A DNA stretch of 64,000 nucleotides from Dermatobacter hominis (GTDB lineage Bacteria > Actinomycetota > Acidimicrobiia > Acidimicrobiales > Microtrichaceae): contig NZ_CP085840.1 in assembly GCF_020715685.1 (NCBI RefSeq), forward strand, positions 806,001-870,000. The letters are read 5' to 3'. The position numbers were made by a program, and so were the translations under genes. Shown here piece after piece: positions 28,480 through 58,220 of the stretch. The notes below the pieces were generated by a model. It saw nothing but the letters and a program-made list of their open reading frames with translations, was not told the DNA's origin and searched no databases. Within the stretch, counting starts at the first letter, position 1, and each line of letters begins with the position of its first letter.

Positions 28480-28582
28480 CCGTGCGGAACGTAGCATCGG
28501 CCCCCTCCGGCGCTCCGGGAGCCGTCTCGCCGAACGGAACAGGGCCCTCTCCGGCGCCGTCGCCATCGGCCACGATGATCCC

Positions 28583-29482: not shown

Positions 29483-30507
29483 TGCCCTACTCCGACGAGC
29501 TCGACATCCGCATGACCGACTCGGCGCTGCGCGACGGATCGCACGCCAAGTCGCACCAGTTCACCGAGCAGATGGTCCGCGACGTCGTGACCGGCCTGGA
29601 CCGCGCCGGCATGCCGGTGATCGAGGTCACCCACGGCGACGGCCTCGGCGGCTCCTCCTTCAACTACGGCTTCAGCCACACCGACGAGCGCGTGCTCATC
29701 GCCGCCGCGGTCGAGAGCGCGGAGCGGGCGAAGATCGCCGCGCTGATGCTGCCCGGGCTGGGCACGAAGGACGACATCACCGCGGCGGCCGACCTCGGCG
29801 TGTCGGTCATCCGCATCGCCACCCACTGCACCGAGGCCGACATCGCGGACCAGCACTTCGGCCTCGCCCGCGACACCGGGCTCGAGACCGTCGGCTTCCT
29901 GATGATGGCCCACTCGCAGCCGCCCGAGGTGCTGGCCGCGCAGGGCCGGATCATGGTCGACGCCGGCTGCCAGTGCGTCTACGTCGTCGACTCGGCCGGG
30001 GCGATGATCCTCGACGATGTGACCGAGCGGGTGGCCGCGCTCGTGGCCGAGGTCGGCGACGACGCCCAGGTCGGCTTCCACGGCCACGAGAACCTCGGGC
30101 TCGGCGTGGCCAACTCGATCTGCGCCATCCGGGCGGGCGCGACCCAGGTCGACGGCTCGACCCGCCGCTTCGGCGCCGGTGCCGGCAACACGCCGTGCGA
30201 GGCGCTCGCCGCGGTGTGCGAGAAGCTCGGCATCCGCACCGGCATCGACGTCCTGGCCATGTTCGACGTCGCCGAGGACGTCGTCCGCCCGGTCATGGAC
30301 GGCGAGGCCGCGCTCGACCGCCTGGCGCTGATCATGGGCTACGCCGGCGTGTACTCGTCGTTCCTGCGCCACGCCTACCGGGCGGCCGAGCGCTACGGGG
30401 TGTCCGGCGCCGACATCCTGCTCGAGTGCGGCGAGCGCCGGCTCGTCGGCGGCCAGGAGGACCAGATCATCGAGATCGCGGTCGGCCTCGCCGCCACCCC
30501 CCACTGA
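29482..30507 (+). CDS. hsaF: 4-hydroxy-2-oxovalerate aldolase
   Basis: DRE-TIM family aldolase of 341 residues. Substrate/metal motif [17 protein letters not shown] (about 10-26) has Asp/Arg catalytic residues, and the metal-binding HGHEN (about 195-199) and NTPCEALA segments are clear. It cleaves 4-hydroxy-2-oxoacids to pyruvate and an aldehyde; the complex with the preceding dehydrogenase channels the aldehyde. The ATG overlaps the preceding stop by one base. An inverted pair of repeats follows its 3' end. Confidence 0.96.
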
Positions 30508-35933: not shown

Positions 35934-36560
35934 GTGGCCGCCGGCGACCCCATCCGAGCAGACGCTCCGGCCGGGCCGGCGCGCAGCGCCAAGTGGCAGC
36001 GGCGCCGCCGGCTGATCGTCGACACCTCGGCGCGCGTGTTCGCGGAGCGCGGGTTCCACGGCACCAGCACCACCGAGCTGTGCGACGCCAACCAGCTGGG
36101 CAAGGGCGCCCTCTACTACTACATCGGCTCCAAGGAGGAGCTGCTCGCCGCCATCCACGACCGGGTGATGGACGAGGTCATGGCCGGCGCGGCCCGGGTG
36201 GCAGAGGCCGGCGGATCGCCGCCCGAGCAGCTGGCGCGCATGGGCCACGAGCTCCTCGACGTGATCGCCCGCTACCCCGACCACGTGTGGGTGTTCCTCC
36301 ACGAGTTCCCGGCGCTGACCGGTGAGAACGCGACCCAGTTCCGCGCCCGCCGCCACGAGTACGAGCACGCCGTCGAGTCGGTCATCGCCGCCGGCGTCGC
36401 CTCGGGCGACTTCCGGCCGGTCGACCCGCGCCTGACCAGCCGGGCCTGGCTCGGCATGTACAACTACACCTACCTCTGGCTGAAGCCGGGCGGGTCGCTC
36501 TCGGCGGCCGAGGTCGCCGAGCAGTTCGCCGACGTGTTCATCAAGGGGATCGCCGAGTGA
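35934..36560 (+). CDS. TetR family transcriptional regulator
   Basis: Regulator of 208 residues. The N-terminal HTH (about 20-65) reads LIVDTSARVFAERGFHGTSTTELCDANQLGKGALYYYIGSKEELLAAI, including the recognition helix LGKGALYYYIGSKEEL. The rest is helical, with WLGMYNYTYLWLKPGG near the end, typical of TetR ligand domains. GTG start at 35934. It overlaps the E1 fusion gene (GTGA) and so is co-transcribed with it. Palindromes of the same core at its own promoter, at the BVMO and at the PhyH gene suggest a local regulon. Confidence 0.95.
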   Translation: MAAGDPIRADAPAGPARSAKWQRRRRLIVDTSARVFAERGFHGTSTTELCDANQLGKGALYYYIGSKEELLAAIHDRVMDEVMAGAARVAEAGGSPPEQLARMGHELLDVIARYPDHVWVFLHEFPALTGENATQFRARRHEYEHAVESVIAAGVASGDFRPVDPRLTSRAWLGMYNYTYLWLKPGGSLSAAEVAEQFADVFIKGIAE

Positions 36561-38536
36561 GCGACGCGGCGGCCGACGAGGTCGCCGACCTCGTCGAGCG
36601 GCACCGGCGGATGCTGCTCATCCGTGGGTTCGAGGACCGGGTGGCCGCCCTCTACCGGGACGGCGAGGTGCCGGGCTTCGTCCACCTCTCGACCGGGCAG
36701 GAGGCCTCGGCAGTCGGGGCGTGCTGGCCGCTCCGCCCGGGTGACGTCATCACCTCCACGCACCGCGGCCACGGGCACTGCCTCGCCAAGGGGCTGTCGC
36801 CGGTCGCGATGTTCGCCGAGCTGATGGCCCGCGACACCGGGACGAACCGCGGCCGGGGCGGCTCGATGCACATCGCCGATCCGTCGCTCGGGATCTTCGG
36901 CGCCAACGGCATCGTCGGGGCGGGCCTCCCGATCGCGGTCGGCGCCGCGACCGCGAGCCGGCTCCGCGCCGACAACGGGCTGGCGGTCGCCTTCTTCGGC
37001 GATGGCGCGGTCGCCCAGGGGGCGTTCCACGAGGCCGTCAACCTGGCTGCGGTCTGGCGGCTGCCGGTCGTGTTCTGGTGCGAGGACAACGGCTACGCCG
37101 AGTTCTCCCCCGCCGAAGCCCAGCACGCCGTGCCGCTCGCCCGGCGCGCCGACGGCTACGGGCTCACGCACCTCCAAGTGGACGGCAACGACGTCGAGGC
37201 CTGCGTCGACACGATGGCGCGGGCCGCCGCCCAGGTCCGGGCCGACGGCCCGCCGGTCCTCGTCGAGGCCACCACCTACCGCTGGCACGGCCACTACGAG
37301 GGCGACCCCGAGCGCTACCGCACCGCCGACGAGCGGGAGCGGTGGAAGGGGCGGGACCCGCTGCTCGTGCACCGCGCCCGCCTGCTCGAGGCGGGCGTCG
37401 ACGCCACGGAGCTCGACGCGCTGGTCGCGGCGGTCGACCGCGAGCTCGACGAGGCCGTCCGCACGGCCCGGGCCGCGCCGTCGCCCTCGGTCGACTCCCT
37501 CCACGACTTCGTCGTCCGGCCCCGACCCGTGGTGCCCGAGCCGACGGCGCCCGAGCCCGATGCCGAGCCGTTCCGCATGATGGACGCGATCCACGACGCC
37601 CTCGAGGTCGAGCTCACCGACGACGAGCGGACGTTCGTCGCCGGCATCGACGTCGGCGACGGCGGCAACGTGTTCGGCCTGACCCGGGGCCTGCGCGACC
37701 GCTTCGGCGACCGTGTCCGCGACACCCCGATCTCCGAGACCGCGATCGTCGGCCTCGGCGTCGGCGCCGCGATGGCCGGCATGCGGCCCGTCGTCGAGAT
37801 CATGTACCTCGACTTCGTCGGCGTGTGCCTCGACCAGCTGCTGAACCAGGCGGCCAAGCTGCCGTTCATGACCGGCGGCGGTGCGCCGATGGGCCTGACG
37901 GTCCGGACGCAGTTCGGGGCGGGGCGGTCCTCGGGGAGCCAGCACTCGCAGAGCCTCGAGGCGCTGCTCGCGCACATCCCGGGGCTCAGCGTCGTCATGC
38001 CGAGCACCCCTGCCGACGCGTACGGGCTCCTCCGCGCCGCCATCCAGGACCCGAACCCGGTCGTGTTCATCGAGAACCGCCTCACCTACGGCATGAAGGG
38101 ACCGCGCCCGCCGCGGGACCACCTGCTGCCGATCGGCCGGTCCGCGATCGTCCGGGCCGGCACGCAGATCACGCTCGTGTCGGTCTCGCGGATGGTGCAC
38201 GAGGCGCTCGCGGCGGCCGAGGCCGTCGCCGCGGAGGGGTTGTCGGTCGAGGTGATCGACCTGCGCACCGTCGCCCCGCTCGACCTCGGGCCGGTGCTCG
38301 AGTCGGTGGGCCGGACCAGCCGGCTGCTGATCGCGCACGAGGCGGTCGTGCCGTTCGGCATCGGGGCCGAGATCGCGGCGACGGTCGCCCGGGAGGCGTT
38401 CTGGTCGCTGGACGCGCCGATCGAGCGCATCGGTGCGGCGCCGACGCCCGCCCCGTACGCGCCCGACCTCGAGCGGGCGTGGCTGCCCGATCGCGACCGC
38501 ATCGCCGAGGCGCTGCGCCGCCTCGCCGCGGTCTGA
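36557..38536 (+). CDS. TPP-dependent dehydrogenase E1, alpha-beta fusion
   Basis: A 659-residue fusion of E1 alpha (about 1-310) and E1 beta (about 338-655). TPP motif GDGAVAQGAFHEAVNLAA (about 151) with the Asn of WCEDNGYAEF, and beta motifs EIMYLDFVGVCLDQLLNQAAK and LLIAHEAVVPFGIGAEIAA. Fused E1 is known for 2-oxoisovalerate- and acetoin-dehydrogenase-like enzymes. No E2 or E3 gene is in the window, so either these are elsewhere or the protein acts as another 2-oxoacid enzyme. Overlaps the TetR stop by GTGA. Substrate unknown; a branched or ring-derived 2-oxoacid is a guess. Confidence 0.92.
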   Translation: MSDAAADEVADLVERHRRMLLIRGFEDRVAALYRDGEVPGFVHLSTGQEASAVGACWPLRPGDVITSTHRGHGHCLAKGLSPVAMFAELMARDTGTNRGRGGSMHIADPSLGIFGANGIVGAGLPIAVGAATASRLRADNGLAVAFFGDGAVAQGAFHEAVNLAAVWRLPVVFWCEDNGYAEFSPAEAQHAVPLARRADGYGLTHLQVDGNDVEACVDTMARAAAQVRADGPPVLVEATTYRWHGHYEGDPERYRTADERERWKGRDPLLVHRARLLEAGVDATELDALVAAVDRELDEAVRTARAAPSPSVDSLHDFVVRPRPVVPEPTAPEPDAEPFRMMDAIHDALEVELTDDERTFVAGIDVGDGGNVFGLTRGLRDRFGDRVRDTPISETAIVGLGVGAAMAGMRPVVEIMYLDFVGVCLDQLLNQAAKLPFMTGGGAPMGLTVRTQFGAGRSSGSQHSQSLEALLAHIPGLSVVMPSTPADAYGLLRAAIQDPNPVVFIENRLTYGMKGPRPPRDHLLPIGRSAIVRAGTQITLVSVSRMVHEALAAAEAVAAEGLSVEVIDLRTVAPLDLGPVLESVGRTSRLLIAHEAVVPFGIGAEIAATVAREAFWSLDAPIERIGAAPTPAPYAPDLERAWLPDRDRIAEALRRLAAV

Positions 38537-44916: not shown

Positions 44917-46119
44917 ATGACCACGACGAACGCCGCGGCGGCGTACTACGACCCGTACGACGTCGCCATCAACGCGGATCCGTACCCCGCGTTCCGGGCC
45001 CTCCGCGAGGAGGCGCCCGTCTACTACAACGACGTCCACGACTTCTGGGCGCTCAGCCGGTTCGAGGACATCGACCGGGCGATCCGCGACCACGGCACGT
45101 TCATCTCCGGTCGCGGCGGCATCCTCGAGCTCATCAAGGCGGGCATCGAGATGCCCCCGGGCATCCTCATCTTCGAGGACCCGCCGTCGCACACGGTCCA
45201 CCGCCGGCTCCTGTCGCGGGTGTTCACGCCCAAGCGGGTGGCCGAGCTCGAGCCCAAGGTGCGCGAGTACTGCGTCCAGTGCCTCGATCCGTTCGTCGGG
45301 GAGGAGGACTTCGACTTCATCGCCCACCTCGGTGCGCAGGTGCCGATGAAGACGATCAGCATGCTGCTCGGCATCCCCGAGAGCGACCAGGAGTTCATCC
45401 GCGACAAGGTCGACGCCAGCCTCCGGACCGAGGAGGGCAAGCCGATGGAGGTCCGCGAGGACTTCGTCAGCGGCGACATGTTCGCCGACTACGTCGACTG
45501 GCGGGCCGAGCACCCGTCCGACGACCTCATGACCGACCTGCTGCAGGCGACGTTCACCGACGACAAGGGGGAGGTCAGGTCGCTGAGCCGGGAGGAGATC
45601 CTGACCTACGTCAACGTGATCGCCGGCGCCGGCAACGAGACGACGAACCGACTGATCGGCTGGACGGGCAAGACGCTGGCGGACCACCCCGACCAGCGCC
45701 GGGAGCTCGTCGAGGACCACTCGCTGATCCCGAACGCCATCGAGGAGCTGCTCCGGTTCGAGGGGCCGGCGCCGCACGTGGGGCGCTTCGTCGTCGAGGA
45801 CGTCGAGATCCGGGGCACGACCGTCCCGGCCGGCAGCGCCATCCTGCTGCTGCTCGGGTCCGGCAACCGCGACGAGCGGCGCTGGCCCGACGCCGACCGG
45901 TTCGACATCCACCGCGACGTCGGCCAGATGCTGACGTTCGGCTACGGCATCCACTTCTGCCTCGGGGCCGCACTGGCCCGCATGGAGGGCCGGGTCGCGC
46001 TCGAGGAGCTGCTCACCCGCTTCCCCGAGTGGGAGGTCGACGAGGAGCGCGCCCGCCTGTCGCCCACGTCGACGGTCCGCGGCTGGGAGACCCTCCCCGT
46101 GCGCCTGGGGGCGGGCTGA
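44917..46119 (+). CDS. Cytochrome P450
   Basis: P450 of 400 residues. I-helix AGAGNETT (about 236-243), ExxR as ELLR, heme loop FGYGIHFCLGAALAR with Cys348. Close in layout to the P450s at 5407 and 7571 (YYDPYDVAINADPYPAFRAL start, GWETLPVRLG end). ATG 44917 has GGGGGG about nine bases upstream. The stop shares one base with an SDR start and a TetR gene follows, so it heads a P450-SDR-TetR operon under a palindromic operator. It likely hydroxylates the same class of substrate. Confidence 0.95.
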   Translation: MTTTNAAAAYYDPYDVAINADPYPAFRALREEAPVYYNDVHDFWALSRFEDIDRAIRDHGTFISGRGGILELIKAGIEMPPGILIFEDPPSHTVHRRLLSRVFTPKRVAELEPKVREYCVQCLDPFVGEEDFDFIAHLGAQVPMKTISMLLGIPESDQEFIRDKVDASLRTEEGKPMEVREDFVSGDMFADYVDWRAEHPSDDLMTDLLQATFTDDKGEVRSLSREEILTYVNVIAGAGNETTNRLIGWTGKTLADHPDQRRELVEDHSLIPNAIEELLRFEGPAPHVGRFVVEDVEIRGTTVPAGSAILLLLGSGNRDERRWPDADRFDIHRDVGQMLTFGYGIHFCLGAALARMEGRVALEELLTRFPEWEVDEERARLSPTSTVRGWETLPVRLGAG

Positions 46120-46868
46120 TGGGAGAGCTCGACGGCAAGGTCGCGGTGATCACCGGTGCCGGGTCCGGCATGGGCAAGGCCTCGGTGAAGGTGTTCCTCC
46201 GCGAAGGGGCCACGGTCGTCGCGGCCGACATCAGCGGCGCCGAGGCCACCACCGCCGAGGAGGCGGTCGCCGAGCACGGCGGCGAGGTGCTGCCCGTGCA
46301 CTGCGACGTGACGCAGGAGCCCGAGGTCGAGGCGCTGTTCGCCGCCGCGCTCGAGTCGTTCGGCCGCGTCGACTCGGTGCTCAACGTCGCCGGCATCGCC
46401 GACGGAGGGCTGCTCACCGACCTGTCGATGGAGACCTACGACCGCATCATGGAGGTGAACCTCCGCGGCGTGGTCCTGGGCATGAAGCACGGCATCCGCG
46501 CGCTGCTGCGCTCGGGCGGCGGCACGGTGACCAACTGGTCGTCGGTGGGCGGGCTCAACGGGTCGGCCGGCACCGCGGTGTACTCGGCCTCGAAGGCCGG
46601 CGTCCTCGCCGCGACGCGCTCTGGCGCGGTGGAGTTCGGCGACCAGGGCGTTCGCGTCAACGCGATCTGCCCCGGCTTCATCCTCACCGAGATCATGGGC
46701 GCGATGGGCGCCGACCTGCCGGGCATCAAGGAGAAGGCCGCGCTGAACCGCGCCGGGCTCCCCCACGAGGTCGCCGAGGTCGGCGCGTTCCTCGCGTCGG
46801 ACCGGGCCTCGTTCCTCACGGGGGCGATCATCCCGGTCGACGGCGGCTGGTCGGCCAAGCTGGCGTGA
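46119..46868 (+). CDS. SDR family oxidoreductase (P450 operon)
   Basis: Classical short-chain dehydrogenase of 249 residues: TGAGSGMG (about 12-19), NVAGIA, NWSSVGG with catalytic Ser, YSASK, and LTGAIIPVDGG. The start MGELDGKVA is the same as in the SDR at 57426, which also follows a P450. Overlaps the P450 stop by one base and the TetR start by four. Expected to oxidise the hydroxyl made by the P450 with NAD(P). Confidence 0.94.
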   Translation: MGELDGKVAVITGAGSGMGKASVKVFLREGATVVAADISGAEATTAEEAVAEHGGEVLPVHCDVTQEPEVEALFAAALESFGRVDSVLNVAGIADGGLLTDLSMETYDRIMEVNLRGVVLGMKHGIRALLRSGGGTVTNWSSVGGLNGSAGTAVYSASKAGVLAATRSGAVEFGDQGVRVNAICPGFILTEIMGAMGADLPGIKEKAALNRAGLPHEVAEVGAFLASDRASFLTGAIIPVDGGWSAKLA

Positions 46869-47494
46869 GCACCCGTCCGGCCGAGCCCGCCCGTCGGCGC
46901 TACGACAACACGCTCCGCAGCGAGCAGGCGGCCGGGACGCGCCAGCGGATCGTCGACGCGGCGTGCGAGCTCGCACGAGAGTCCGGCATGCGCGACTGGC
47001 GGGGGCTGACCGTGACCGCCACGGCCGAGCGGGCCGGCGTGAGCGCACGGACCGTGTACCGCCACTTCACCTCGGAGGTCGGCCTCCGCCAGGCGGCGAT
47101 GGCCGAGATGGAGCAGCGGGCCGGCATCGACCTGTCGACGCTGTCGCTCGACGGCGTGGCCGATGCCGCGGCACGGATCTTCTCCGAGGTCGGCGGGTTC
47201 CGCACCGCGCCGGCCGCCGAGGCGGACCCGGTGCTGGCCGAGGCCGGGGCCCGTCAGCGCGAGGCGCTCGTCGCCGCGGTCGCCGAGGTGGCCGACGGGT
47301 GGACCGACGAGGAGCGCATCCGGGCCGCCGCGGTGCTCGACGTGCTGTGGTCGCCCGCCGCGTACGAGCGCCTGCTCGGGAACTGGGGGCTCGGGCCCGA
47401 CGGCGCCTCCGAGGCGCTCACGTGGGCGGTGCGGCTCGTCATCGGGGCGGTCCGGGGCAATCGCCAGCCCGTTGACTTTACTACGAGTTCGTAG
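46865..47494 (+). CDS. TetR family transcriptional regulator
   Basis: Regulator of 209 residues. The HTH (about 25-70) reads RQRIVDAACELARESGMRDWRGLTVTATAERAGVSARTVYRHFTSEVGLRQAAM. The C-terminal ligand domain is helical. GTG start overlaps the SDR stop (GTGA). Its last codons and stop lie inside a 22-base palindrome (47477-47498), which is at the same time the promoter of the following amidohydrolase operon. It is a good candidate to bind there and repress that operon. Confidence 0.94.
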   Translation: MSTRPAEPARRRYDNTLRSEQAAGTRQRIVDAACELARESGMRDWRGLTVTATAERAGVSARTVYRHFTSEVGLRQAAMAEMEQRAGIDLSTLSLDGVADAAARIFSEVGGFRTAPAAEADPVLAEAGARQREALVAAVAEVADGWTDEERIRAAAVLDVLWSPAAYERLLGNWGLGPDGASEALTWAVRLVIGAVRGNRQPVDFTTSS

Positions 47495-47535: not shown

Positions 47536-48750
47536 GTGGCCGACACCAGCACGCTCGTGTATCCGACCGGGGGCCTCGGCGCGCCCAAGGACCGCAGCCC
47601 GGGAGCACCCGTCGACCTCGGCCTGCCCGCCGGGTTCGAGGTGTTCTCGGCCGACGACCACATCAGCCTGGCCGACGACATCTGGTACGAGGGCTTCCCG
47701 GAGCGCCTCCGCGACCAGGCGCCGCGCGTGATGCAGGTCGACGGCGGCTGGGTCCTCGGCTCGAACGGGACGACCTTCCTGCCGCCGGCGTTCATCGAGG
47801 TCCTCAACCAGTACGACCCGGTGCCGGGCTCGCACACGGGCGACATCGACGCCCGCCTCGCCGCCCTCGACGCCGAGGGCGTGACCTCCGAGCTGGCGTT
47901 CCCGAACGCGATCCTCGCCCTGCTCATGTGGCCCGACAAGGAGGTCCGGGAGCTGTGCTTCCGGATCTACAACGAGTACCTGGCCGGCGTGCAGGAGCGG
48001 TCCGGCGGGCGCATCTGGGGCGTCGGGCTCATCAACTGGTGGGACGCCGAGGGCGCCGCCCGCACGCTCGACGAGCTCACCTCGCTCGGCATCCGCACGT
48101 TCCTGATGCCGCTCAACCCGGGCAAGGGCGACGACGGCAAGCCGCTCGACTACGCCAGCGACGCCATGGACGGCGTCTGGTCCGCGATCGAGGACTCCGG
48201 CGTGCCCGTCTCGCACCACATCGGTGAGACCACGCCGGGGATCCCGAGCCAGCACAACACGCTGGGCGTCGGGATGCTGCAGTCGGTGGCGCCGTTCCGG
48301 GAGGTGTTCGCCAAGTACGTCCTCGGTGGCATCCTCGACCGCCACCCCGCGCTGCAGGTGGGCTGGTTCGAGGGCGGCATCAACTGGGTCCCCTCCGCGC
48401 TGCAGGACGCCGAGCACATCGCCGCGTCGTTCGCGCACCTCCACGACCACGAGCTGCAGCACCCGGTCCAGCACTACTGGGAGGCGCACATGACCGCCTC
48501 GTTCATGGTCGACCCGCTCGGCCTCGAGCAGATCGACCGCATCGGCGTGACCCGGGCCATGTGGTCCTCGGACTTCCCGCACAACGAGAGCACCTACGGC
48601 TACACGCCCGAGGTGCTCGCGTCGGTCGTCGCCCAGGTCGGGCCCGAGGCCGCAGAGGCGATCCTCGGCGACAACGTGCGGTCCTTCCTCGGGCTCGGCG
48701 AGGCGGCGGGCGACGGGGTCCGGGACCGCAGCCCTCGGGACGCCCGCTGA
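47536..48750 (+). CDS. Amidohydrolase family (amidohydrolase_2) protein
   Basis: TIM-barrel metal-dependent hydrolase/decarboxylase of 404 residues: VFSADDHISLADD is a variant of the DxH metal motif, with HHIGETTPG, WFEGG, and SSDFPHNES near residue 350 giving the His/Asp site. Homologues act on keto acids or carboxylates (ACMSD-like decarboxylases). GTG 47536 has AGGGGGGAC upstream. First gene of an eight-gene run (47.5-58.2 kb) with 0-4-base overlaps. The exact reaction is unknown; decarboxylation or hydrolysis of a ring-fragment acid is plausible. Confidence 0.9.
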   Translation: MADTSTLVYPTGGLGAPKDRSPGAPVDLGLPAGFEVFSADDHISLADDIWYEGFPERLRDQAPRVMQVDGGWVLGSNGTTFLPPAFIEVLNQYDPVPGSHTGDIDARLAALDAEGVTSELAFPNAILALLMWPDKEVRELCFRIYNEYLAGVQERSGGRIWGVGLINWWDAEGAARTLDELTSLGIRTFLMPLNPGKGDDGKPLDYASDAMDGVWSAIEDSGVPVSHHIGETTPGIPSQHNTLGVGMLQSVAPFREVFAKYVLGGILDRHPALQVGWFEGGINWVPSALQDAEHIAASFAHLHDHELQHPVQHYWEAHMTASFMVDPLGLEQIDRIGVTRAMWSSDFPHNESTYGYTPEVLASVVAQVGPEAAEAILGDNVRSFLGLGEAAGDGVRDRSPRDAR

Positions 48751-49967
48751 TGCCCGCCGGCCTCATGGAGCGGGCCGCGCCGGCGCGGCTCCCCTCCTCC
48801 CCCGACCTCGGACGCATGCGGGCCGATCGGATCGCCAAGGTGCGGGCGAACATGCAGCAGGCGGGCCTCGACGCCGTCGTCCTGCTGGGCAACACGAACG
48901 TGGTCTACGCGACCGGCGCGACCTGGCCGCTCGGCGACCCGGGGCGGGCCAACTTCGAGCAGCCGGTCGCCGTGGTGCTGGCCGACGACGAGTGGCCCCA
49001 CCTCTTCACGCCGCTGCCCGACGATCCCGGCCTGCCCGCCGACCACGTCCACGGGCCCGTGTACCTCGACCTCGACGAGGGCGTGCAGCGCTTCGAGCGC
49101 CAGCTCGCCGAGCTGGTGCCCGCCGGCGCCAGCATCGGCGTCGACGAGTGGACGTTCGCGATGGCCAGGGAGAGCTCGCTGCTCTTCTCCGACGGCACGC
49201 CGCGGGACGGCGGCAAGGCCATCACGAAGGCCAAGGCGGTCAAGACGCCCGACGAGCTGGCGGGGCTGCGCGAGGCGCTCCGCATCACCGAGCAGGCCAT
49301 CGCAGAGGTGCAGGCGGCGATCGCCCCCGGGATGCGCCAGGTCGAGATGACCGCCACCTTCCTCCGGGCCGTCTTCGACGCCGGCGCCGACGCCAACACC
49401 CTCGACCCGATCTGGCAGGTGATGCCGCCCACCATGGGCGACGGCCCCTGGACGACCCACGGCGACCTCGCCTGCCCGCTGCTCACCACCGAGCGGGAGC
49501 TGCAGCGCGGCGACGTGCTGTGGGTCGACACGAGCATCACGCACCGGGGCTTCCACTCCGACTTCGGGAGGACGTGGATCGTCGGTGCGGACCCCACGCC
49601 GCGCCAGCGGGCTCAGTTCGAGCTCTGGTCCGACATCGTCCGCGCCGTCCTCGACGTCACCTGCGCCGGCGCGGCGCAGTCCGAGCTCACCGCCGCCGCA
49701 CGGGCGGTCGCCGGCGACCGGACGCCGTGGATGCCGCACTTCTACCTGGGCCACGGCCTCGGCATCGACGCCGCCGAGATGCCGTACGTGGGCAGCGACC
49801 TCGGCGAGCAGTTCGACGCCGGCCACGCGCTCGAGGCCGGCATGGTCCTCGTGCTCGAGCCGCTCGTGTGGGACGACGGCGCCGCCGGCTACCGCGCCGA
49901 GGAGGTCGTCGTCATCACCGAGGACGGCTGGGAGCCCATGACCGACTACCCCTACGACCCGTTCTGA
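48750..49967 (+). CDS. M24 family (pita-bread fold) hydrolase, intact metal site
   Basis: Aminopeptidase P/creatinase-like protein of 405 residues. An N-terminal domain (to about 165) is followed by a pita-bread domain with the five metal ligands Asp260 (VDTSITH), Asp271 (HSDFGRTW), His335 (YLGHGLGID), Glu370 (LVLEPLVW) and Glu384 (YRAEEVV). It may cleave C-N or related bonds. Start overlaps the amidohydrolase stop by one base. It is followed by a paralogue with these ligands lost. Substrate unknown; the setting in a catabolic operon points away from peptides. Confidence 0.9.
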   Translation: MPAGLMERAAPARLPSSPDLGRMRADRIAKVRANMQQAGLDAVVLLGNTNVVYATGATWPLGDPGRANFEQPVAVVLADDEWPHLFTPLPDDPGLPADHVHGPVYLDLDEGVQRFERQLAELVPAGASIGVDEWTFAMARESSLLFSDGTPRDGGKAITKAKAVKTPDELAGLREALRITEQAIAEVQAAIAPGMRQVEMTATFLRAVFDAGADANTLDPIWQVMPPTMGDGPWTTHGDLACPLLTTERELQRGDVLWVDTSITHRGFHSDFGRTWIVGADPTPRQRAQFELWSDIVRAVLDVTCAGAAQSELTAAARAVAGDRTPWMPHFYLGHGLGIDAAEMPYVGSDLGEQFDAGHALEAGMVLVLEPLVWDDGAAGYRAEEVVVITEDGWEPMTDYPYDPF

Positions 49968-51115
49968 TGGCCGGCACCCTCACCACCGAGGTCCAGCCCG
50001 ACGCCGCCGCCCTCCGGCGCGAGCGCCGGGAGCGGGCGCTGGCCGAGATGGAGGCGGACGGCATCGACGTCCTGATCCTGGGCCGCGAGGGCAACGCCCG
50101 GTACGTCGCCGGCGCCCCCCGCCTGTGGACCGCCGGCTCGCGCCCCTTCACCCCGGGCTGCGTGCTCGTGCGGGCGACCGGCGACGTGCACCTGCTGTCG
50201 ACGTGGGACGAGGGCATCCCCGACGACATCCCCCACGAGCACCTCTACGGCATCACCTTCAACCCCATGAACATGGTGCAGGTGCTGCAGGGCGTCGCCG
50301 GCGCCGCGACGGCGGCGCGCGTCGCCACGGACTCGCTCACGCCGATGTTCGCCCAGCTGCTGCCGGCCGCGTTCCCGATGGCGGAGATCGTCGACGGCGA
50401 GGCGGCCATGCGGCGCGCCCGGCGCATCAAGACGCCGGCCGAGGTGGACGAGATCCGGCGGTCGGTGGCGGTGGCCGAGCGGTGCCTGGCGGCGGCCGAG
50501 GCGGTGCTCACCGCCGGCACCACCGAGCGCCGGCTCACCGGCGCGTTCATGGAGGAGATGGCCCTGGCCGGGGTCACGACCCCGTCGAACCAGGACGTCG
50601 CCTGGATCACCTCGCCCGAGCACCCGTGGCGGCGGGGCGACCGGGACGCGGTCGTGGCCGACGGCGACGTGGTCGTGCTGGGCGGCGGTGTGGTGCGCGG
50701 CGGCTACGTGGGCGAGCTCGCACGGACCCATGCGGTCGGCGGCGGACACGGCCCGGTCCTCGACCGCCTCGCCGAGCTGCGGGGCGAGCTGCTGGCGGCC
50801 TGCCGGGCCGGCGCACCGGCGAGCGCGCTGCTCGACGTGTACGCATCCGGCGGGGTCACCCCGCCGCCGGCGCCGATCGCCCGTGGGCTCGGCCTGGGCT
50901 TCGACCTCCCGATCGTCGCCCCCGACCTCCCGGGCACCGCCGCTGCGGAGCCGCTCGACGTGGGCGTCGTGTTCGCGCTGACGAGCTTCGTGTGGGAGCC
51001 CGGCACCGGTGCCGCCATCGCGGTCGACCCGGTGCACGTGACCGAGCACGGCGCCGAGCTGCTGAGCAGCCCCGCGCCATCGACCAGCCCGACGAGCGCA
51101 CAGGAGCAGGCGTGA
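49967..51115 (+). CDS. M24-fold protein with lost metal ligands (pseudoenzyme)
   Basis: A 382-residue paralogue of the upstream M24 protein: MEADGIDVLILGREGNARYVAG aligns with the same N-terminal domain, and KTPAEVDEIRRSVAVAERCLAAAEA with the pita-bread start. The ligands are not kept: VVVLGGGVVRGGYVGELART lacks the first Asp and has Glu for the second, GLGLGFDLPIV lacks the His, and FALTSFVWEPG lacks the first Glu. Catalysis is therefore unlikely. Starts with a one-base overlap (TGATG). Its likely role is a partner or regulator of the intact M24 protein. Confidence 0.85.
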   Translation: MAGTLTTEVQPDAAALRRERRERALAEMEADGIDVLILGREGNARYVAGAPRLWTAGSRPFTPGCVLVRATGDVHLLSTWDEGIPDDIPHEHLYGITFNPMNMVQVLQGVAGAATAARVATDSLTPMFAQLLPAAFPMAEIVDGEAAMRRARRIKTPAEVDEIRRSVAVAERCLAAAEAVLTAGTTERRLTGAFMEEMALAGVTTPSNQDVAWITSPEHPWRRGDRDAVVADGDVVVLGGGVVRGGYVGELARTHAVGGGHGPVLDRLAELRGELLAACRAGAPASALLDVYASGGVTPPPAPIARGLGLGFDLPIVAPDLPGTAAAEPLDVGVVFALTSFVWEPGTGAAIAVDPVHVTEHGAELLSSPAPSTSPTSAQEQA

Positions 51116-52071
51116 GCGACATCCCCGCACCCGAGGAGATCGTCCGGTACGAGAAGGACGTGGCGAACAGGATCGCCACGATCACGTTCGACCGGCCGGA
51201 CCGCCTCAACGCCCCGACCATCGGCGCCCGCCGCCGCTACGGCGACCTCATCTTCAAGGCCAGCCTCGACGACGACGTCAAGGTCCTGGTGATCCGGGGC
51301 GAGGGCGACGACCTCGGGTCCGGCGCCGACCTCGACGAGCTCATGGCCAAGCGGGAGGGCGACGCCGCGCTGCGCGAGGAGTTCGGCGTCGAGGACGACG
51401 ACGACATCACGATGCCGCCGCCACGCAACTACCGGAACGGCGCGTCGCTCGTGCAGTGGTACGCCGATCCCCGGGCCGGTTGCCGGTCCCTGCAGGACTT
51501 CAAGAAGATCAGCATCCTCGAGGTCAAGGGCTACTGCTACGGCTGGCACTTCTACCAGGCCGCCGACGCCGATCTGGTGGTGTCGTCCGACGACGCGCTG
51601 TTCGGCCACGCCGCCTTCCGGTACGTCGGCTACGCGCCGCGGATGTGGCAGTGGGCGACGCTCATGGGCCTGCGGAAGTTCCAGGAGATGGTCTTCACCG
51701 GCCGGCCCTTCACCGCCGCCGAGATGGCCGAGCTCAACTTCATCAACAGCGTCGTGCCCCGCGACCAGCTCGAGGACGAGACAGCCAAGTACGCGATGGC
51801 GTGCGCGAACAACCTGCCCACCGACACGGTGTTCGCGCAGAAGGTGTTCTTCGAGATCATGAAGCAGCACCAGGGCGAGCACATGGGCAGCCTGATCAGC
51901 GCCTGGCTCGAGTCCATGCGGGGGCCGCTCAAGCCCGACGCCGACCGGTCGGTCATCGGCCTCGACCGCGAGACGATGGAGTCGGGGCTGAACAACGCGG
52001 TCAAGGGCAACGACCGGAACTTCCCGCCCGAGTGGCGGCTCTCCAAGTCCGGACGGGAGCAGCCCGAGTGA
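51112..52071 (+). CDS. Enoyl-CoA hydratase family protein
   Basis: Crotonase-fold protein of 319 residues, longer than average. GEGDDLGSGADLDELM (about 64-79) and KGYCYGWHFYQAADADLV replace the usual oxyanion segments, and an acidic insertion (REEFGVEDDDDITMPPP, about 88-104) is unusual. The C-terminal tail includes KSGREQPE. Substrate is unusual; it may act in ring hydration or another CoA step. The GTG start overlaps the preceding stop and the stop overlaps the CoA-transferase start. Confidence 0.88.
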   Translation: MSDIPAPEEIVRYEKDVANRIATITFDRPDRLNAPTIGARRRYGDLIFKASLDDDVKVLVIRGEGDDLGSGADLDELMAKREGDAALREEFGVEDDDDITMPPPRNYRNGASLVQWYADPRAGCRSLQDFKKISILEVKGYCYGWHFYQAADADLVVSSDDALFGHAAFRYVGYAPRMWQWATLMGLRKFQEMVFTGRPFTAAEMAELNFINSVVPRDQLEDETAKYAMACANNLPTDTVFAQKVFFEIMKQHQGEHMGSLISAWLESMRGPLKPDADRSVIGLDRETMESGLNNAVKGNDRNFPPEWRLSKSGREQPE

Positions 52072-54410
52072 GCTCCGACGCAGCGGTCCGGCCGCTCGCA
52101 GGGCTCGAGGTCGTCGACCTGTCGAGCTGGATCGCCGGCGCGTACTGCAGCCGGCTCCTCGCCGACGCCGGCGCCGCCGTCACGCGGGTCGAGCCCGACG
52201 GCGGCCACCCGCTGCGGACCTGGTCGGCCTCGGGCGAGTCCGCCGGCGCGCTGCACCGGCACCTGACCGACGGGCTCGCCGAGCGCCCGGCGGACGAGCT
52301 CGACGACGTCCTGGCCACGGCGGGAGCGTGCGTGTGGTCGCCCGGGGCCGCGTTGGACCCCCTCGCGATCCGGACCGCCCACCCGCACCTCACCGTCGTG
52401 GCCATCTCCCCCTTCGGGCTCGACACGCCCTGGAGCGACCGTCCCGCCACCGAGTTCACCCTGCAGGCCTGGTCCGGCGGGATCATCGGCCTGGGCCGCG
52501 GCGCCGCCGACCTGCCACCCGTGCACGTCGGTGGCCAGGTCGGCGAGTGGCTCGCCGGCGCCTACGCCGCGGTCGGGCTGCTGGCGGCCCTGCGCGACGG
52601 GGGCGGTGAGCTCGTCGACGTCTCGATGCTCGAGGTCCAGGCGATGTGCCTCACCTACTACCCCGTCACCTTCCACGACTCGTTCGGCCGTCCGATGCGC
52701 AAGCGCCGCGCCCTCACCGTCCCGGGCGTCGCAGCCGCGAGCGACGGGCTCGTCGGGCTCGGGGTCGGCACCGGCCAGCAGTGGCTCGACTTCTGCGTGA
52801 TGGCCGGCCACCCCGAGTGGGCCGAGGACGCCTCCCTGTTCACCGAGCGCGGCGCCCTCGCCGGGCAGATCGACGAGTGGGTCGGCGGGCAGACCGTGGC
52901 CGAGGTGCTCGACACGGCCTCCGCGTTCCGCATCCCCAACGCCCCGATCGTCGACGGCGCCAACGCCCCGACGATCGAGCACCTCCGCGAGCGCGAGGTG
53001 TTCCGCACCGCCGAGGACGGGACCGTCCGGCCCCGACCGCCGTTCCGTATCACGACCCCGACCGGCGCCGGTCCCGCCCCCACGCCACGTTCTGCCCCCG
53101 CGCCACGTTCTGTTCCCGGGACCTGGGGCGTTCGCCCCGGTCCTCGGGAACAGAACGGGCGGGGGTCGCCGTTCCGCGGGTTGCGCGTGCTGGACATGAC
53201 CGCGTACTGGGCCGGCCCGTCGGCCAGCCACCTGCTCGCCCTGCTGGGCGCCGAGGTCGTGCACCTCGAGTCGGCCCGCCGCCCCGACGGCGCCCGCCTG
53301 GTCGGCGGCCGGTCCCAGGACCTCGACCGGTACTGGGAGCAGGGCCCGATCTTCGCCGCCCTCAACACCAACAAGAAGAGCCTCACGCTCGACTTCGCCA
53401 AGCCCGAGGGGCTCGACCTCCTCCGCCGCTTCATCGCCACGTGCGACGTGGTGATCGAGAACTTCACGCCGCGGGTGCTCGATCAGCTGGGCTTCACCTA
53501 CGAGTCGCTCCGGGAGCTGCGCGACGACCTGATCGTGGTCAGGATGCCCGGCTTCGGGCTCGACGGGCCGTGGCGCGACAACGCCGCCTTCGCCTTCGTC
53601 ATCGAGGACGCGTCGGGCCTCACCTGGATGACCGGGCACCCCGAGCAGCACCCGGTCGAGCCGTACTGCACCGGCGACTCGAACGCCGGGCTGCACGCTG
53701 CCTACGGGCTGCTCCTCGCCCTCGCCCAGCGCGACGCGACCGGCACCGGCTGCCAGGTCGAGGCGGCGATGGTCGACGCCGCGCTCAGCATCACCGCGGA
53801 GCAGGTGGTCGAGCACTCGACGAGCGGCGTCCGCCTGGCGCGCGACGGCAACCGGGGTCCCGCGGCGGCCCCCCAGAACCTCTACGAGTGCGCCGACGCC
53901 GACGAGTACGGCCGCGAACCGGCCCGGGTGGCCGTTGCGGTCGCCACCGACGAGCAGTGGACGGCGCTGCGTGGCGCCCTCGGCGACCCCGACTGGGCCG
54001 CGGACCCCTCGCTCGACGACCACGCCGGCCGCCGGGCCGCGCACGACCTGATCGACGACCGGCTGCGCGAGTGGTGCGCGTCGAGGACTGCGGACGAGGT
54101 CATCGGGGCGCTCTGGAGCGCCGGCGTGCCGGTCGGGCGGGTCCTGCAACCGCACCGCCAGCCCGAGCTGCCGCCGCTGCAGGCGCGGGGCTTCTTCGAG
54201 GAGCTCGACCACCCGGTCATGGGACCGGCGCGGTACAGCACGATCCCGTTCCGCCTCGGCGGACGGCCCGAGGCGCTGCACCGGCGTCACGCTCCGCTCC
54301 TCGGCGAGCACACCGCCGAGCTGCTCGGCGAGCTGGGGCTCGGGCCGGCGGAGCTGGCGCAGCTCGAGGCCGACGGCGTGATCGCCACGGCCCTGGAGGG
54401 CGCCGCATGA
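52068..54410 (+). CDS. Fused CoA-transferase family III (CaiB/BaiF), two domains
   Basis: A 780-residue protein with two complete CaiB/BaiF-type domains: about 10-330 and 360-775. The C-domain has the catalytic Asp537 in CTGDSNAG; the N-domain reads VHVGGQVGEWLAGA at the same place (Gly155-Gly156), so only one active site is expected. The linker (about 340-365) is Pro/Arg rich and is encoded by a palindromic repeat of an intergenic type. It transfers CoA between carboxylates. The GTG start overlaps the preceding stop; the stop overlaps the KstD-like start (ATGA). Confidence 0.92.
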   Translation: MSSDAAVRPLAGLEVVDLSSWIAGAYCSRLLADAGAAVTRVEPDGGHPLRTWSASGESAGALHRHLTDGLAERPADELDDVLATAGACVWSPGAALDPLAIRTAHPHLTVVAISPFGLDTPWSDRPATEFTLQAWSGGIIGLGRGAADLPPVHVGGQVGEWLAGAYAAVGLLAALRDGGGELVDVSMLEVQAMCLTYYPVTFHDSFGRPMRKRRALTVPGVAAASDGLVGLGVGTGQQWLDFCVMAGHPEWAEDASLFTERGALAGQIDEWVGGQTVAEVLDTASAFRIPNAPIVDGANAPTIEHLREREVFRTAEDGTVRPRPPFRITTPTGAGPAPTPRSAPAPRSVPGTWGVRPGPREQNGRGSPFRGLRVLDMTAYWAGPSASHLLALLGAEVVHLESARRPDGARLVGGRSQDLDRYWEQGPIFAALNTNKKSLTLDFAKPEGLDLLRRFIATCDVVIENFTPRVLDQLGFTYESLRELRDDLIVVRMPGFGLDGPWRDNAAFAFVIEDASGLTWMTGHPEQHPVEPYCTGDSNAGLHAAYGLLLALAQRDATGTGCQVEAAMVDAALSITAEQVVEHSTSGVRLARDGNRGPAAAPQNLYECADADEYGREPARVAVAVATDEQWTALRGALGDPDWAADPSLDDHAGRRAAHDLIDDRLREWCASRTADEVIGALWSAGVPVGRVLQPHRQPELPPLQARGFFEELDHPVMGPARYSTIPFRLGGRPEALHRRHAPLLGEHTAELLGELGLGPAELAQLEADGVIATALEGAA
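53107..53167. repeat. Palindromic repeat inside the coding linker of the CoA-transferase
   Basis: 53107-53123 and 53139-53156 form an 18-bp stem with one bulge, with a nested GGGGC/GCCCC hairpin as loop. The right part 53147-53167 matches 15745-15765 at 20 of 21 bases. The element is in frame and encodes a low-complexity linker around residues 347-367. CGCCACGTTCTG is directly repeated just before and within it. Confidence 0.8.
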
Positions 54411-56098
54411 CCGCCGACGCCGCACCGGCGCACGAGTGGGACCACGAAGTCGACGTCGTCATCGTCGGTTCGGGCGGCGGCGGCATGGTCGCGGCGCTCG
54501 CCGCCGCCGATGCGGGCGCGAGCGCCGTCGTGCTGGAGAAGCGCGACCTCATCGGCGGCTCGACGGCCATGTCGGGCGGGGTGGTCTGGATCCCCGACAA
54601 CCCGCTGCTCCGCGCCGACGGCGTGGCCGACTCCTACGAGGACGCCATGGCCCACTTCGAGGCCGTCGTCGGCGACGTCGGGGCCTGCTCGTCGCCCGAG
54701 CGCCGCAGCGCCTTCCTCACCTCCGGACCCGAGATGGTGACGTTCCTGCAGGAGCAGGGCGTCCGCTTCGAGCGGTGCGTCGGCTACAGCGACTACTACT
54801 CCGACGAGAAGGGCGGGCTCGCCACCGGTCGTTCCATCGAGCCCGAACCGTGGGACGGCCGGCGGCTCGGCGCCCTCGAGCCGCGCCTCCAGCCCGGGCT
54901 CGCCGCCGGCGTCGGCCTGGCGGTCAAGACCAACGAGGTCCGCACGCTCGCGCACTGGAACCGGACGCCGCGGGCCTTCGGTACCGCCACCCGGGTCATC
55001 ACCCGGACCTGGGCCGCGAAGGCCCGGCGCCGGCACCTGCTCACCAACGGCGCGGCGCTGATCGGCCAGATGCTCGCCATCGCCCAGGACCGGGGCGTGC
55101 CGGTGTGGACCGACTGCCCGGCCACCGACCTCGTGGTCGAGGACGGGCGCGTCGTGGGCGTGCGGGCCACGCGTGACGGCGAACCGATCACGATCCGGGC
55201 CCGGCGTGGCGTCCTGCTGGCCGCCGGCGGGTTCTCGCACAACGCCGAGATGCGCCGCGAGCACGCCCCCGACCGGCGCCAGCAGCCGCGTTGGTCGATC
55301 GCCAACCCGGGCGACACCGGGGACGCGCTGCAGGCCGCCATGGCCCTGGGAGCGCAGACCGATCTCATGGACGAGGCCTGGTGGCTGCCCACGCCGCGCG
55401 GCGGCAAGTTCGGCCAGTCGACGCTGGTCGACGCCCGGTTCCGACCCGGCGCGATCTTCGTCGACGCCGAGGGCCACCGGTTCGTGAACGAGGCCAACTC
55501 GTACATGGAGATCGGCCGGGCCATGTACGAGCGCGACCGCACCGCGCAGGCGGTGCCCTGCTGGCTCGTGTTCGACGACGGCTACCGGCGCCGCTACTCC
55601 CACGGTCTGTCGCGCCCCGGCAAGCTGCCGAAGGGCCTCATCGAGAGCGGCACGCTGAAGCGGGCCGACACCATCGAGGCGCTGGCGGCGGAGTGCGGCA
55701 TCGACCCCGCCGGGCTGGCGGCCGAGGTCGCCCGGTTCAACCGCGAGGCCGAGCACGGCCGCGATCCCGAGCACGGTCGCGGGTCGTCGGCGTACAACCG
55801 CGCGATGGGCGACCCGGGCCACCGGCCCAACCCGTCGCTCGGACCGCTCGCGAGGGCGCCGTTCTACGCCGTCGAGGTGGTGCCGTCCGACATCGGCACG
55901 TGCGGCGGCCTCGTCACCGACGCCGACGCCCGCGTGCTCGGCCCCGACGACGCCCCGATCCCCGGCCTCTACGCCACCGGCAACATCACGGCCACGGTGA
56001 TGGGACGGCGCTACCTCGGCGCCGGGGCGAGCATCGCCAACACGATGGTGTTCGGCTACCGGGCCGTCCGCCACGCCACCAGCCCACCGACCGACTGA
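54407..56098 (+). CDS. KstD-like FAD-dependent dehydrogenase
   Basis: Flavoprotein of 563 residues in the fumarate reductase/KstD family. DVVIVGSGGGGMVAALAAADAG (about 17-38), LEKRDLIGGSTAMSGGVVWIPDN, LLAAGGFSHN, and the C-terminal GLYATGNITATVMGRRYLGAGASIANTMVFGY, in which YLGAG supplies the Tyr/Gly pair known from KstD. It is longer than the KstD-like protein at 30652 and probably acts on a different ring or keto intermediate. Overlaps the CoA-transferase stop (ATGA). A P450 follows after 14 bases. Confidence 0.92.
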   Translation: MTADAAPAHEWDHEVDVVIVGSGGGGMVAALAAADAGASAVVLEKRDLIGGSTAMSGGVVWIPDNPLLRADGVADSYEDAMAHFEAVVGDVGACSSPERRSAFLTSGPEMVTFLQEQGVRFERCVGYSDYYSDEKGGLATGRSIEPEPWDGRRLGALEPRLQPGLAAGVGLAVKTNEVRTLAHWNRTPRAFGTATRVITRTWAAKARRRHLLTNGAALIGQMLAIAQDRGVPVWTDCPATDLVVEDGRVVGVRATRDGEPITIRARRGVLLAAGGFSHNAEMRREHAPDRRQQPRWSIANPGDTGDALQAAMALGAQTDLMDEAWWLPTPRGGKFGQSTLVDARFRPGAIFVDAEGHRFVNEANSYMEIGRAMYERDRTAQAVPCWLVFDDGYRRRYSHGLSRPGKLPKGLIESGTLKRADTIEALAAECGIDPAGLAAEVARFNREAEHGRDPEHGRGSSAYNRAMGDPGHRPNPSLGPLARAPFYAVEVVPSDIGTCGGLVTDADARVLGPDDAPIPGLYATGNITATVMGRRYLGAGASIANTMVFGYRAVRHATSPPTD

Positions 56099-57425: not shown

Positions 57426-58220
57426 GTGGGTGAGCTCGACGGCAAGGTCGCGATCGTCACCGGCGGCGCCAACGGGATCGGGAGGGCGACCGTCGAGCTG
57501 TTCGTCGCCGAGGGCGCCGGCGTGGTGATCGCCGACCTGGACGAGGACGCCGGCACCGCCCTGGCCGACGGGCTCGGCGACGCGGCTGCGTTCGTCCGCA
57601 CCGACGTGGGCGACCGGGACTCGATCGAGGCGGCCGTCGACCGGGCCGTCCAGCGCTTCGGCGGCCTGCACGTCATGTACAACAACGCCGGCGTGTCGGG
57701 CGTGCCCCGCCGGTTCCTCAAGGACACGCTCGCCGACTTCGACCAGGTGATCGGCGTGTCGCTGCTCGGGGTGATGCTCGGGAGCCAGGCCGCCGCCCGC
57801 CGGATGGTCGAACAGGGCACCGGCGGCGCCATCGTCAACACCGCGTCGCTCGCCGGGATCACCCCGGGCGCCGGCGTCATGTCGTACCGCGTCGCCAAGG
57901 CCGGGGTCATCCACTTCACCCGCTGCCTGGCGCTCGAGGTGGCCGAGCACGGGATCCGGGCCAACGTCGTCGCGCCCGCCAACATCGCCACCGCGATCAA
58001 CGCCGGCTTCGACATGGGCCGGACGATCGAGGTGACCCAACCGCTCGCCAGCCACGGCACCCCCGAGGACGCGGCCCAGGCCGCGCTCTACCTCGCGTCG
58101 GACCGGGCCCGGCAGGTGACCGGCACCGTGCTGCCCGTCGACGGCGGCACCTCGGTCGGCATCCCGGTGCAGCGGATGGCCGAGATCATGCGGCCCCGGA
58201 CGCCGCCCACGGACCCGTAG
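57426..58220 (+). CDS. SDR family oxidoreductase (P450 operon)
   Basis: Classical short-chain dehydrogenase of 264 residues: TGGANGIG (about 12-19), NNAGVSG, NTASLAG, YRVAK, and VTGTVLPVDGG, with an extra C-terminal tail (VGIPVQRMAEIMRPRTPPTDP). Start MGELDGKVA equals that of the SDR at 46119. GTG 57426 is 2 bases after the P450 stop. Together with the two other P450-SDR sets, it fits the use of hydroxylation followed by oxidation to a ketone. Confidence 0.94.
   Translation: MGELDGKVAIVTGGANGIGRATVELFVAEGAGVVIADLDEDAGTALADGLGDAAAFVRTDVGDRDSIEAAVDRAVQRFGGLHVMYNNAGVSGVPRRFLKDTLADFDQVIGVSLLGVMLGSQAAARRMVEQGTGGAIVNTASLAGITPGAGVMSYRVAKAGVIHFTRCLALEVAEHGIRANVVAPANIATAINAGFDMGRTIEVTQPLASHGTPEDAAQAALYLASDRARQVTGTVLPVDGGTSVGIPVQRMAEIMRPRTPPTDP

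Follow-up and report, generated by a model that had tools for sequence, protein, structure and literature searches.

Prolidase, aminopeptidase P and creatinase combine a two-domain M24 fold with five metal ligands, match the Pfam families Peptidase_M24 and Creatinase_N, and are each encoded by one gene. The fold also carries non-peptide chemistry in the dimethylsulfoniopropionate (DMSP) lyase DddP, whose homodimer is built from a single gene product, and in the ectoine hydrolase DoeA/EutD, a single gene product as far as its structure entry (6twk) shows. Here we describe a locus of Dermatobacter hominis in which two genes of this fold stand back to back, an upstream gene with all five ligands (P1) and a downstream sister in which every ligand position has changed (P2). 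Coordinates refer to the window, a stretch of 64,000 nucleotides covering bases 806001-870000 of a 4.66-Mb single-contig genome (contig NZ_CP085840.1), and the features are collected in Table 1. From comparative sequence analysis we consider it likely that P1 and P2 are two subunits of one enzyme, in which the N-terminal domain of P2 would complete the active site of P1 in trans.

An inactive M24-like protein with an active partner has been described in Caenorhabditis elegans, where, in excerpts of the source, PID-5 carries an inactive aminopeptidase-P domain and associates with its active relative APP-1 in a proposed heterodimer (PMC10377022). As far as these excerpts go, PID-5/APP-1 is the nearest M24 precedent. 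Unlike P2, PID-5 is eukaryotic, has a regulatory role (RNA silencing), contains an additional eTudor domain and does not belong to a gene pair in a catabolic operon; the two proteins likely lost their ligands independently. Other M24-fold pseudoenzymes are EBP1/PA2G4, tabulated for M24 in the excerpted part of a review of inactive metallopeptidases (PMC11266112), and the FACT subunit Spt16, whose structure 5ce6 is among the fold matches of P2. Both are eukaryotic, and no comparable active sister partner is described for them in the excerpted text. In the steroid enoyl-CoA hydratase ChsH1-ChsH2 of Mycobacterium tuberculosis, excerpts describe a catalytic subunit and a non-catalytic homologue that gives the substrate pocket of a single site (PMC11321319). 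These proteins have the MaoC (hot-dog) fold, which is unrelated to M24, and are like P1-P2 in working principle only. Among open-licence PubMed Central papers, we found no bacterial M24 pair of an active and a dead sister.

A gene pair with one complete and one lost metal site

Both proteins have the M24 fold. P1 scored 116 bits with Peptidase_M24 and 40.1 bits with Creatinase_N, and P2 scored 46.3 and 30.5 bits, all above the gathering cut-offs (23 and 22, respectively); the two proteins are 25% identical across 378 positions. The AlphaFold2 model of P1 (mean predicted local distance difference test score (pLDDT) 83.0) had ectoine hydrolase 6twk as its top match in the PDB (Z 33.4, root-mean-square deviation 2.9, 356 aligned), and the model of P2 (mean pLDDT 87.8) had Xaa-Pro dipeptidase 5cde (Z 32.7, root-mean-square deviation 2.7, 346 aligned). 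The ligands of P1 are D260 (49527), D271 (49560), H335 (49752), E370 (49857) and E384 (49899), the fifth assigned through alignment with Pyrococcus furiosus prolidase. P2 has G239, E250, R306, T339 and V353 at these positions and keeps none of the five, the change from D to E at the second position being conservative. A preliminary description of this sequence had recognized an intact enzyme beside a dead sister, which agrees with these results, but it listed only the first Asp, the His and a Glu as lost from P2 and thereby understated the change.

The ligand pattern was followed in 84 non-duplicate P1-P2 pairs. This set leaves out 8 duplicates; L094, in which neither gene is intact; L059 and L073, whose P2 is truncated where the contig stops; L012 and L015, in which P1 is split or cannot be reached; and L092, which has no P2. 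The sequences come largely from related Actinomycetota, and counts refer to rows rather than independent events. All five ligands were kept in 84/84 P1 proteins. P2 kept none in 25 pairs, one in 52 and two in 7, and never more than two of the five; because no P2 exceeds two while every P1 keeps all, the loss in P2 is not due to chance. P2 is a pseudoenzyme that has kept the fold without the conserved catalytic residues and is retained by selection.

P1 is rarely, if ever, found without P2. When named genomes were scanned with P1 only and the best 80 of 100 relatives were kept as loci, P2 lay directly downstream on the same strand in 79/80. These loci belong to Acidimicrobiia, Streptomyces, Nocardia, Mycobacterium, Trebonia and Frankiales, together with a few metagenome-assembled genomes (MAGs) labelled Proteobacteria, Deltaproteobacteria or Chloroflexi, labels that may be wrong. 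The Streptomyces carriers include S. hokutonensis (L034) and S. fulvoviolaceus (L045). Among 396 genomes of the phylum, 16 P1 profile matches at E <= 1e-70 fell in 12 genomes and 16 P2 profile matches above 450 bits fell in the same 12, the next best P2 match reaching 180 bits; when coordinates were compared, all 16 P1 genes had an adjoining P2. Within the order, P2 was present in 17 of 198 genomes, and P1 stood directly before every P2 whose contig extends far enough, the special cases being L012, in which P1 is split, and L015, which lies at a contig end. The order and phylum scans scored the best few candidates per genome, and absence from them is weak evidence. A further pair, with P1 again ahead of P2, lies elsewhere in the genome of the window (genome bases 3670943-3673281; 49% and 41% identical). 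P1-P2 is an old, stable unit, and its retention (79/80 and 16/16) fits a heterodimer.

The stop codon of P1 and the start codon of P2 share one base, as had been described, and equal synthesis of the two proteins from this arrangement is plausible. The P2 start overlaps P1 in 47/70 non-duplicate pairs and lies within 61 bases in the remainder, counts that are rough because start codons in the relatives are predictions. Two second-copy P2 genes elsewhere (G289:C10:470222-471346 and G552:C132:130-1245) have one in-frame TGA each inside the match, reflecting either recent decay or a match that overruns the end of the gene.

In a tree of 78 rows (31 P1, 31 P2 and 16 other M24 proteins), each group fell on one side of a branch, with supports of 100/100, 100/98 and 100/98 for the three groups. 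P1 and P2 are sister clades against other M24 proteins and derive from a single duplication. Their pairwise identities correlate (r = 0.934), with P2 less alike than P1 in 97.4% of genome pairs. The ratio of nonsynonymous to synonymous substitution rates (dN/dS) of P2 was 0.13-0.33 in 16/17 close pairs; P2 is under purifying selection and is not decaying. That P2 is a decaying duplicate is hardly credible. Such a duplicate could have lost all five ligands, and both genes are broken in Mycobacterium lepraemurium L094; however, dN/dS was below 1 in all 17 close pairs, P2 is retained across the loci, and a loop in its N-terminal domain has a constant length of 15 in 84/84 pairs. Chance or a pseudogene, considered as an explanation for P2, is contradicted by the 79/80 retention, the ligand pattern and dN/dS. 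In L094 (CP021238.1), where P1 and P2 are both fragmented, the Amidohydro_2 relative is still found upstream.

Reciprocal conservation and a candidate composite active site

The two proteins differ in which half is conserved. In P1, the mean conservation score was 0.593 for the C-terminal catalytic domain and 0.449 for the N-domain, whereas in P2 it was 0.410 for the C-domain and 0.525 for the N-domain. The ratio of N- to C-domain identity was 0.72 in P1, 0.84 in ordinary single M24 proteins (a control consisting of P0004 and 30 relatives, n = 31) and 1.22 in P2. N-domain identity exceeded C-domain identity in 0% of P1 pairs, 3.5% of ordinary single M24 pairs and 89% of P2 pairs within a comparable band. 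In addition, P2 is shortened in 24/84 pairs, mostly within the catalytic half: gaps per 20-residue block in these 24 proteins amounted to 0-1% across residues 21-180 and 1-59% across residues 181-380. Gaps in residues 1-20 (23%) may reflect the choice of start.

The N-domain of P2 contains the loop of constant length, which shares with the loop of prolidases the motif N-x-x-Y-x-S/T-G. Five of its residues were conserved in most of the 84 pairs (L53 in 80, W54 in 73, G57 in 83, F61 in 79 and P63 in 74). In the monomer model, pLDDT fell below 50 at residues 55-58, which is compatible with ordering of the loop on a partner.

Homodimeric relatives suggest how these halves could meet. In RdDddP, according to excerpts of the structural study, each active site takes all of its metal ligands from a single monomer and is reached through a tunnel walled by the N-domain of the partner chain, which is inserted into the pita-bread of that monomer (PMC4108388). 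In Escherichia coli PepQ, the excerpted text has loop 35-53 contacting its counterpart in the other subunit, with Asp45 of this loop near the active site (PMC4213023). The open-licence literature gave no useful information on cross-subunit residues in Lactococcus lactis prolidase or in creatinase, and the dimer geometry is taken from DddP and PepQ. P1 would carry a two-metal site in its C-terminal pita-bread domain, and P2 would have lost the metals but kept the fold and a strongly constrained N-domain. M24 dimers are arranged head to tail, with the open pita-bread of either chain receiving the N-domain of its partner. The sole working site, on P1, would then be lined and shaped by the P2 N-domain with its L-W-T-A-G-x-R-P-F loop, and the less constrained N-domain of P1 would cover the dead site of P2. 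A specialized partner of this kind could give room for a bulky substrate. Because the conserved and released halves of P1 and P2 match the working and dead sites, we infer that the two proteins form an asymmetric heterodimer whose one working site is composite. Completion of P1 by P2, rather than control only, is suggested by the fact that the N-domain is the most conserved part of P2 while the pseudo-catalytic half drifts and shortens.

P2 might instead be a separate protein with a new, metal-free function of its own, merely co-transcribed with P1, each of the two being homodimeric. Operon neighbours need not interact, and P2 is well folded in its model and under selection despite having no intact metal site. 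We nevertheless think this quite improbable, since no P1 occurred without P2 in any locus with room to tell, in otherwise differing contexts, and reciprocal conservation is hard to explain by two homodimers.

Candidate chemistry and a possible regulatory role

Peptidases carry a conserved His in the motif HExP, seven residues downstream of the metal-binding His; it was present in 31/31 ordinary single M24 proteins, whereas this position was Ala in 84/84 P1 proteins. P1 is therefore probably not a peptidase, and on the same ground a new bond reaction, raised in the preliminary description for a C-N or C-O bond, is possible. On this contrast, we rejected an ordinary peptidase as a candidate for P1. 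P1 also fell far below all NCBIfam cut-offs, including those for PepQ (70.8 bits, cut-off 630), PRK09795 (54.2, cut-off 393), the DddP model NF043017 (73.3, cut-off 600; the best match by E-value) and the ectoine models NF038259 (38.1, cut-off 575) and TIGR02993 (33.9, cut-off 613). A peptidase or amidase that strips amino-acid or taurine conjugates from ring acids would agree with the nearest solved sequences to P1, which are Xaa-Pro dipeptidases, and with the fold match to DoeA. Given the uniform Ala in the HExP motif and the wide margins by which the NCBIfam cut-offs were missed, we find such an activity very doubtful.

By Z, the closest solved fold to P1 is DoeA (33.4), with the other matches within 1-2 units: DddP at 32.2 (RdDddP 4b28 and RlDddP 4rzy; 368 residues, 23% identity), prolidase at 32.0 and creatinase 1chm, a likeness of fold only, at 31.1. 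These scores are too close together for the reaction to be named from the fold. The proposed catalytic residues of DddP, Tyr366 and Asp377, would correspond in P1 to H330 (82/84) and to S/P/A341 by ungapped offset from the ligand His only; by the same offset, residue 341 is Ala in the P1 of the window and Ser in 70/84. An M24 protein had been considered odd in this operon, but DddP and DoeA, as non-peptide M24 enzymes, make it less odd than claimed. In a ring-degradation pathway initiated by a cytochrome P450 (P450), P1-P2 might hydrolyse an intermediate linked to a carboxylate or to CoA, or act on it by elimination.

Several observations weigh against a composite, non-peptidase enzyme. The sole exception among the 80 loci, L092 (Deltaproteobacteria MAG VGTG01000061.1), has a contig that ends 263 bases past P1 and consists of a GT-rich simple repeat from P1 to this end, without a P2 start; it is either a true exception or an assembly limit. 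One close pair of P2 genes, with few changes, had a dN/dS of 0.71. The trans contact is carried over by analogy from homodimeric relatives. The C-half of P2 is not free, as G309, G311 and K155 are invariant in 84/84, so it may bind something. The top 50 values of mutual information between P1 and P2 columns (84 pairs, effective number 52) point both ways, with 22 joining the C-domain of P1 to the N-domain of P2 (12.8 expected) and 26 joining the two C-domains (16.9 expected). Finally, the second catalytic-His position of P1 (H237, matched to His243 of E. coli aminopeptidase P by alignment and order along the chain) is His in 42, Thr in 34, Asn in 4, Ser in 3 and Leu in 1 of the 84 proteins. 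Changing His243 abolishes the activity of the E. coli enzyme according to excerpts of the source (PMC10377022), and the His in 42/84 would leave room for some peptidase-like activity.

The invariant residues of the C-half bear on a further alternative, that P2 is a regulator or scaffold that switches or places P1, for example through an effector in the dead site, with no role in substrate binding. The glycines and K155 could mark a ligand site, the fifth ligand position of P2 is Arg in 56/84, and in the excerpted text PID-5 is proposed to place or control APP-1 (PMC10377022). However, a sensor in the dead site predicts the opposite of what was found, since it is the C-half of P2 that drifts and shrinks and the N-domain that is kept, and the pair is near-constant across contexts. 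We regard this role as unlikely. The preliminary description had proposed a heterodimer in which the pseudoenzyme controls or extends its active partner; the pairing fits the heterodimer, and control alone is less favoured than completion of the P1 site. For the composite enzyme, we infer a heterodimer, completion in trans and non-peptidase chemistry.

Gene neighbourhood and implications

The pair is embedded in a run of genes on the same strand (Table 1), which had been described as a lipid-ring catabolic operon. This assignment is reasonable, as one gene scored above the cut-off for 3-ketosteroid-delta-1-dehydrogenase.

Table 1. Features of the P1-P2 locus in window coordinates
Feature	Coordinates	Strand	Remarks
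P1, M24 / creatinase-fold, 405 aa	48750-49967	+	complete open reading frame (ORF), full D-D-H-E-E metal site
P1 A342, at the place of the conserved His in peptidase motif HExP	49773-49775	+	from alignment
TGATG, P1 stop and P2 start sharing one base	49965-49969	+	from sequence
P2, M24-fold sister, 382 aa	49967-51115	+	complete ORF, all five ligand positions changed
P2 N-terminal domain, residues 14-144	50006-50398	+	best-conserved part; proposed to close the active site of partner P1
P2 N-domain loop, residues 49-65, GAPRLWTAGSRPFTPGC	50111-50161	+	conserved, constant length
P2 pseudo-catalytic half, residues about 149-368	50411-51070	+	less conserved, shortened in 24/84
P450	44917-46119	+	upstream
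Short-chain dehydrogenase/reductase (SDR)	46119-46868	+	upstream
TetR regulator	46865-47494	+	upstream
Amidohydro_2 protein	47536-48750	+	last base is first base of P1
Enoyl-CoA hydratase / crotonase family	51112-52071	+	downstream of P2
Two fused class III CoA-transferase (CaiB) units	52068-54410	+	L028 homologue has two CoA_transf_3 stretches
3-ketosteroid-delta-1-dehydrogenase-like flavoprotein	54407-56098	+	NF009478, 799.4 bits, cut-off 789
Second P450	56113-57423	+	downstream
SDR	57426-58220	+	downstream

We compared 38 loci that have 8 kb of flanking sequence on either side of the pair with 28 random windows from four genomes. Near the pair, P450 genes were found in 30/38 loci (1/28 random windows), enoyl-CoA hydratase (crotonase) relatives in 25/38 (0/28), Amidohydro_2 relatives in 21/38 (0/28), CoA-transferases in 21/38 (0/28) and any acyl-CoA gene in 32/38 (4/28), figures that describe context rather than a fair probability, as the queries were drawn from the same loci (with self-votes removed) and the genomes are related. 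In a Mycobacterium branderi plasmid, the genes run P450, amidohydrolase, P1, P2, with the amidohydrolase placed before the pair as in the window. No 3-ketosteroid-delta-1-dehydrogenase-like gene is among the listed features of this plasmid, which suggests that in some carriers the substrate may be something other than a steroid. In the proposed pathway, the P450 and SDR would oxidize a ring compound, the CoA-transferase and crotonase would act on the resulting acid, and P1-P2 would, with the help of its metals, hydrolyse a bulky intermediate or catalyse an elimination on it.

Crotonase genes are also near the distant pairs L071 (a MAG labelled Proteobacteria) and L078 (a MAG labelled Chloroflexi), L071 having a luciferase-like monooxygenase as well; from these crotonases, the acyl-CoA link of the pair may be old. 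In 17 loci (for example, L086 13075-14181), the first or second gene after P2 encodes an APH-type phosphotransferase.

Elsewhere in the window, genes at 26831-30507 encode a 2-keto-4-pentenoate hydratase-like protein (- strand), an acetaldehyde dehydrogenase (+ strand) and a 4-hydroxy-2-oxovalerate aldolase (+ strand), the latter two above their cut-offs. Judged by sequence, they are the end steps of a meta-cleavage pathway of the steroid or aromatic type. A second flavoprotein related to 3-ketosteroid-delta-1-dehydrogenase (30655-32241, - strand) scored 478.6 bits, below the cut-off of 789, and a 659-aa ORF at 36557-38536 fuses pyruvate-dehydrogenase E1 alpha-like and beta-like parts. ARAGORN called a tRNA-Ala (ggc) at 53663-53735 on the - strand, opposite to and inside the CoA-transferase ORF; the call is probably false because Rfam had no match there, and Rfam gave no match anywhere in the window.

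We tentatively suggest, with reservations, that P1-P2 may represent a previously undescribed two-subunit class of M24 enzymes, found in Actinomycetota and perhaps more widely, whose catalytic and substrate-shaping halves, combined in the classic homodimer, were divided between sisters after one duplication. Such an enzyme would have a single enlarged site and carry out a new reaction other than peptide cleavage, a metal-dependent hydrolysis or elimination with bulky, P450-derived ring compounds as substrates. Genes annotated as 'M24 family metallopeptidase' or 'Xaa-Pro peptidase family protein', as the pair is in the M. branderi record, may then be subunits of one unstudied catabolic enzyme. 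If so, an assay of P2 by itself would be falsely negative, and one of P1 by itself might be as well. The pair would also be a clean natural case of a dimer that divides catalysis and substrate binding between sisters, of the kind that ChsH1-ChsH2 exemplifies, with a different fold, in steroid breakdown.

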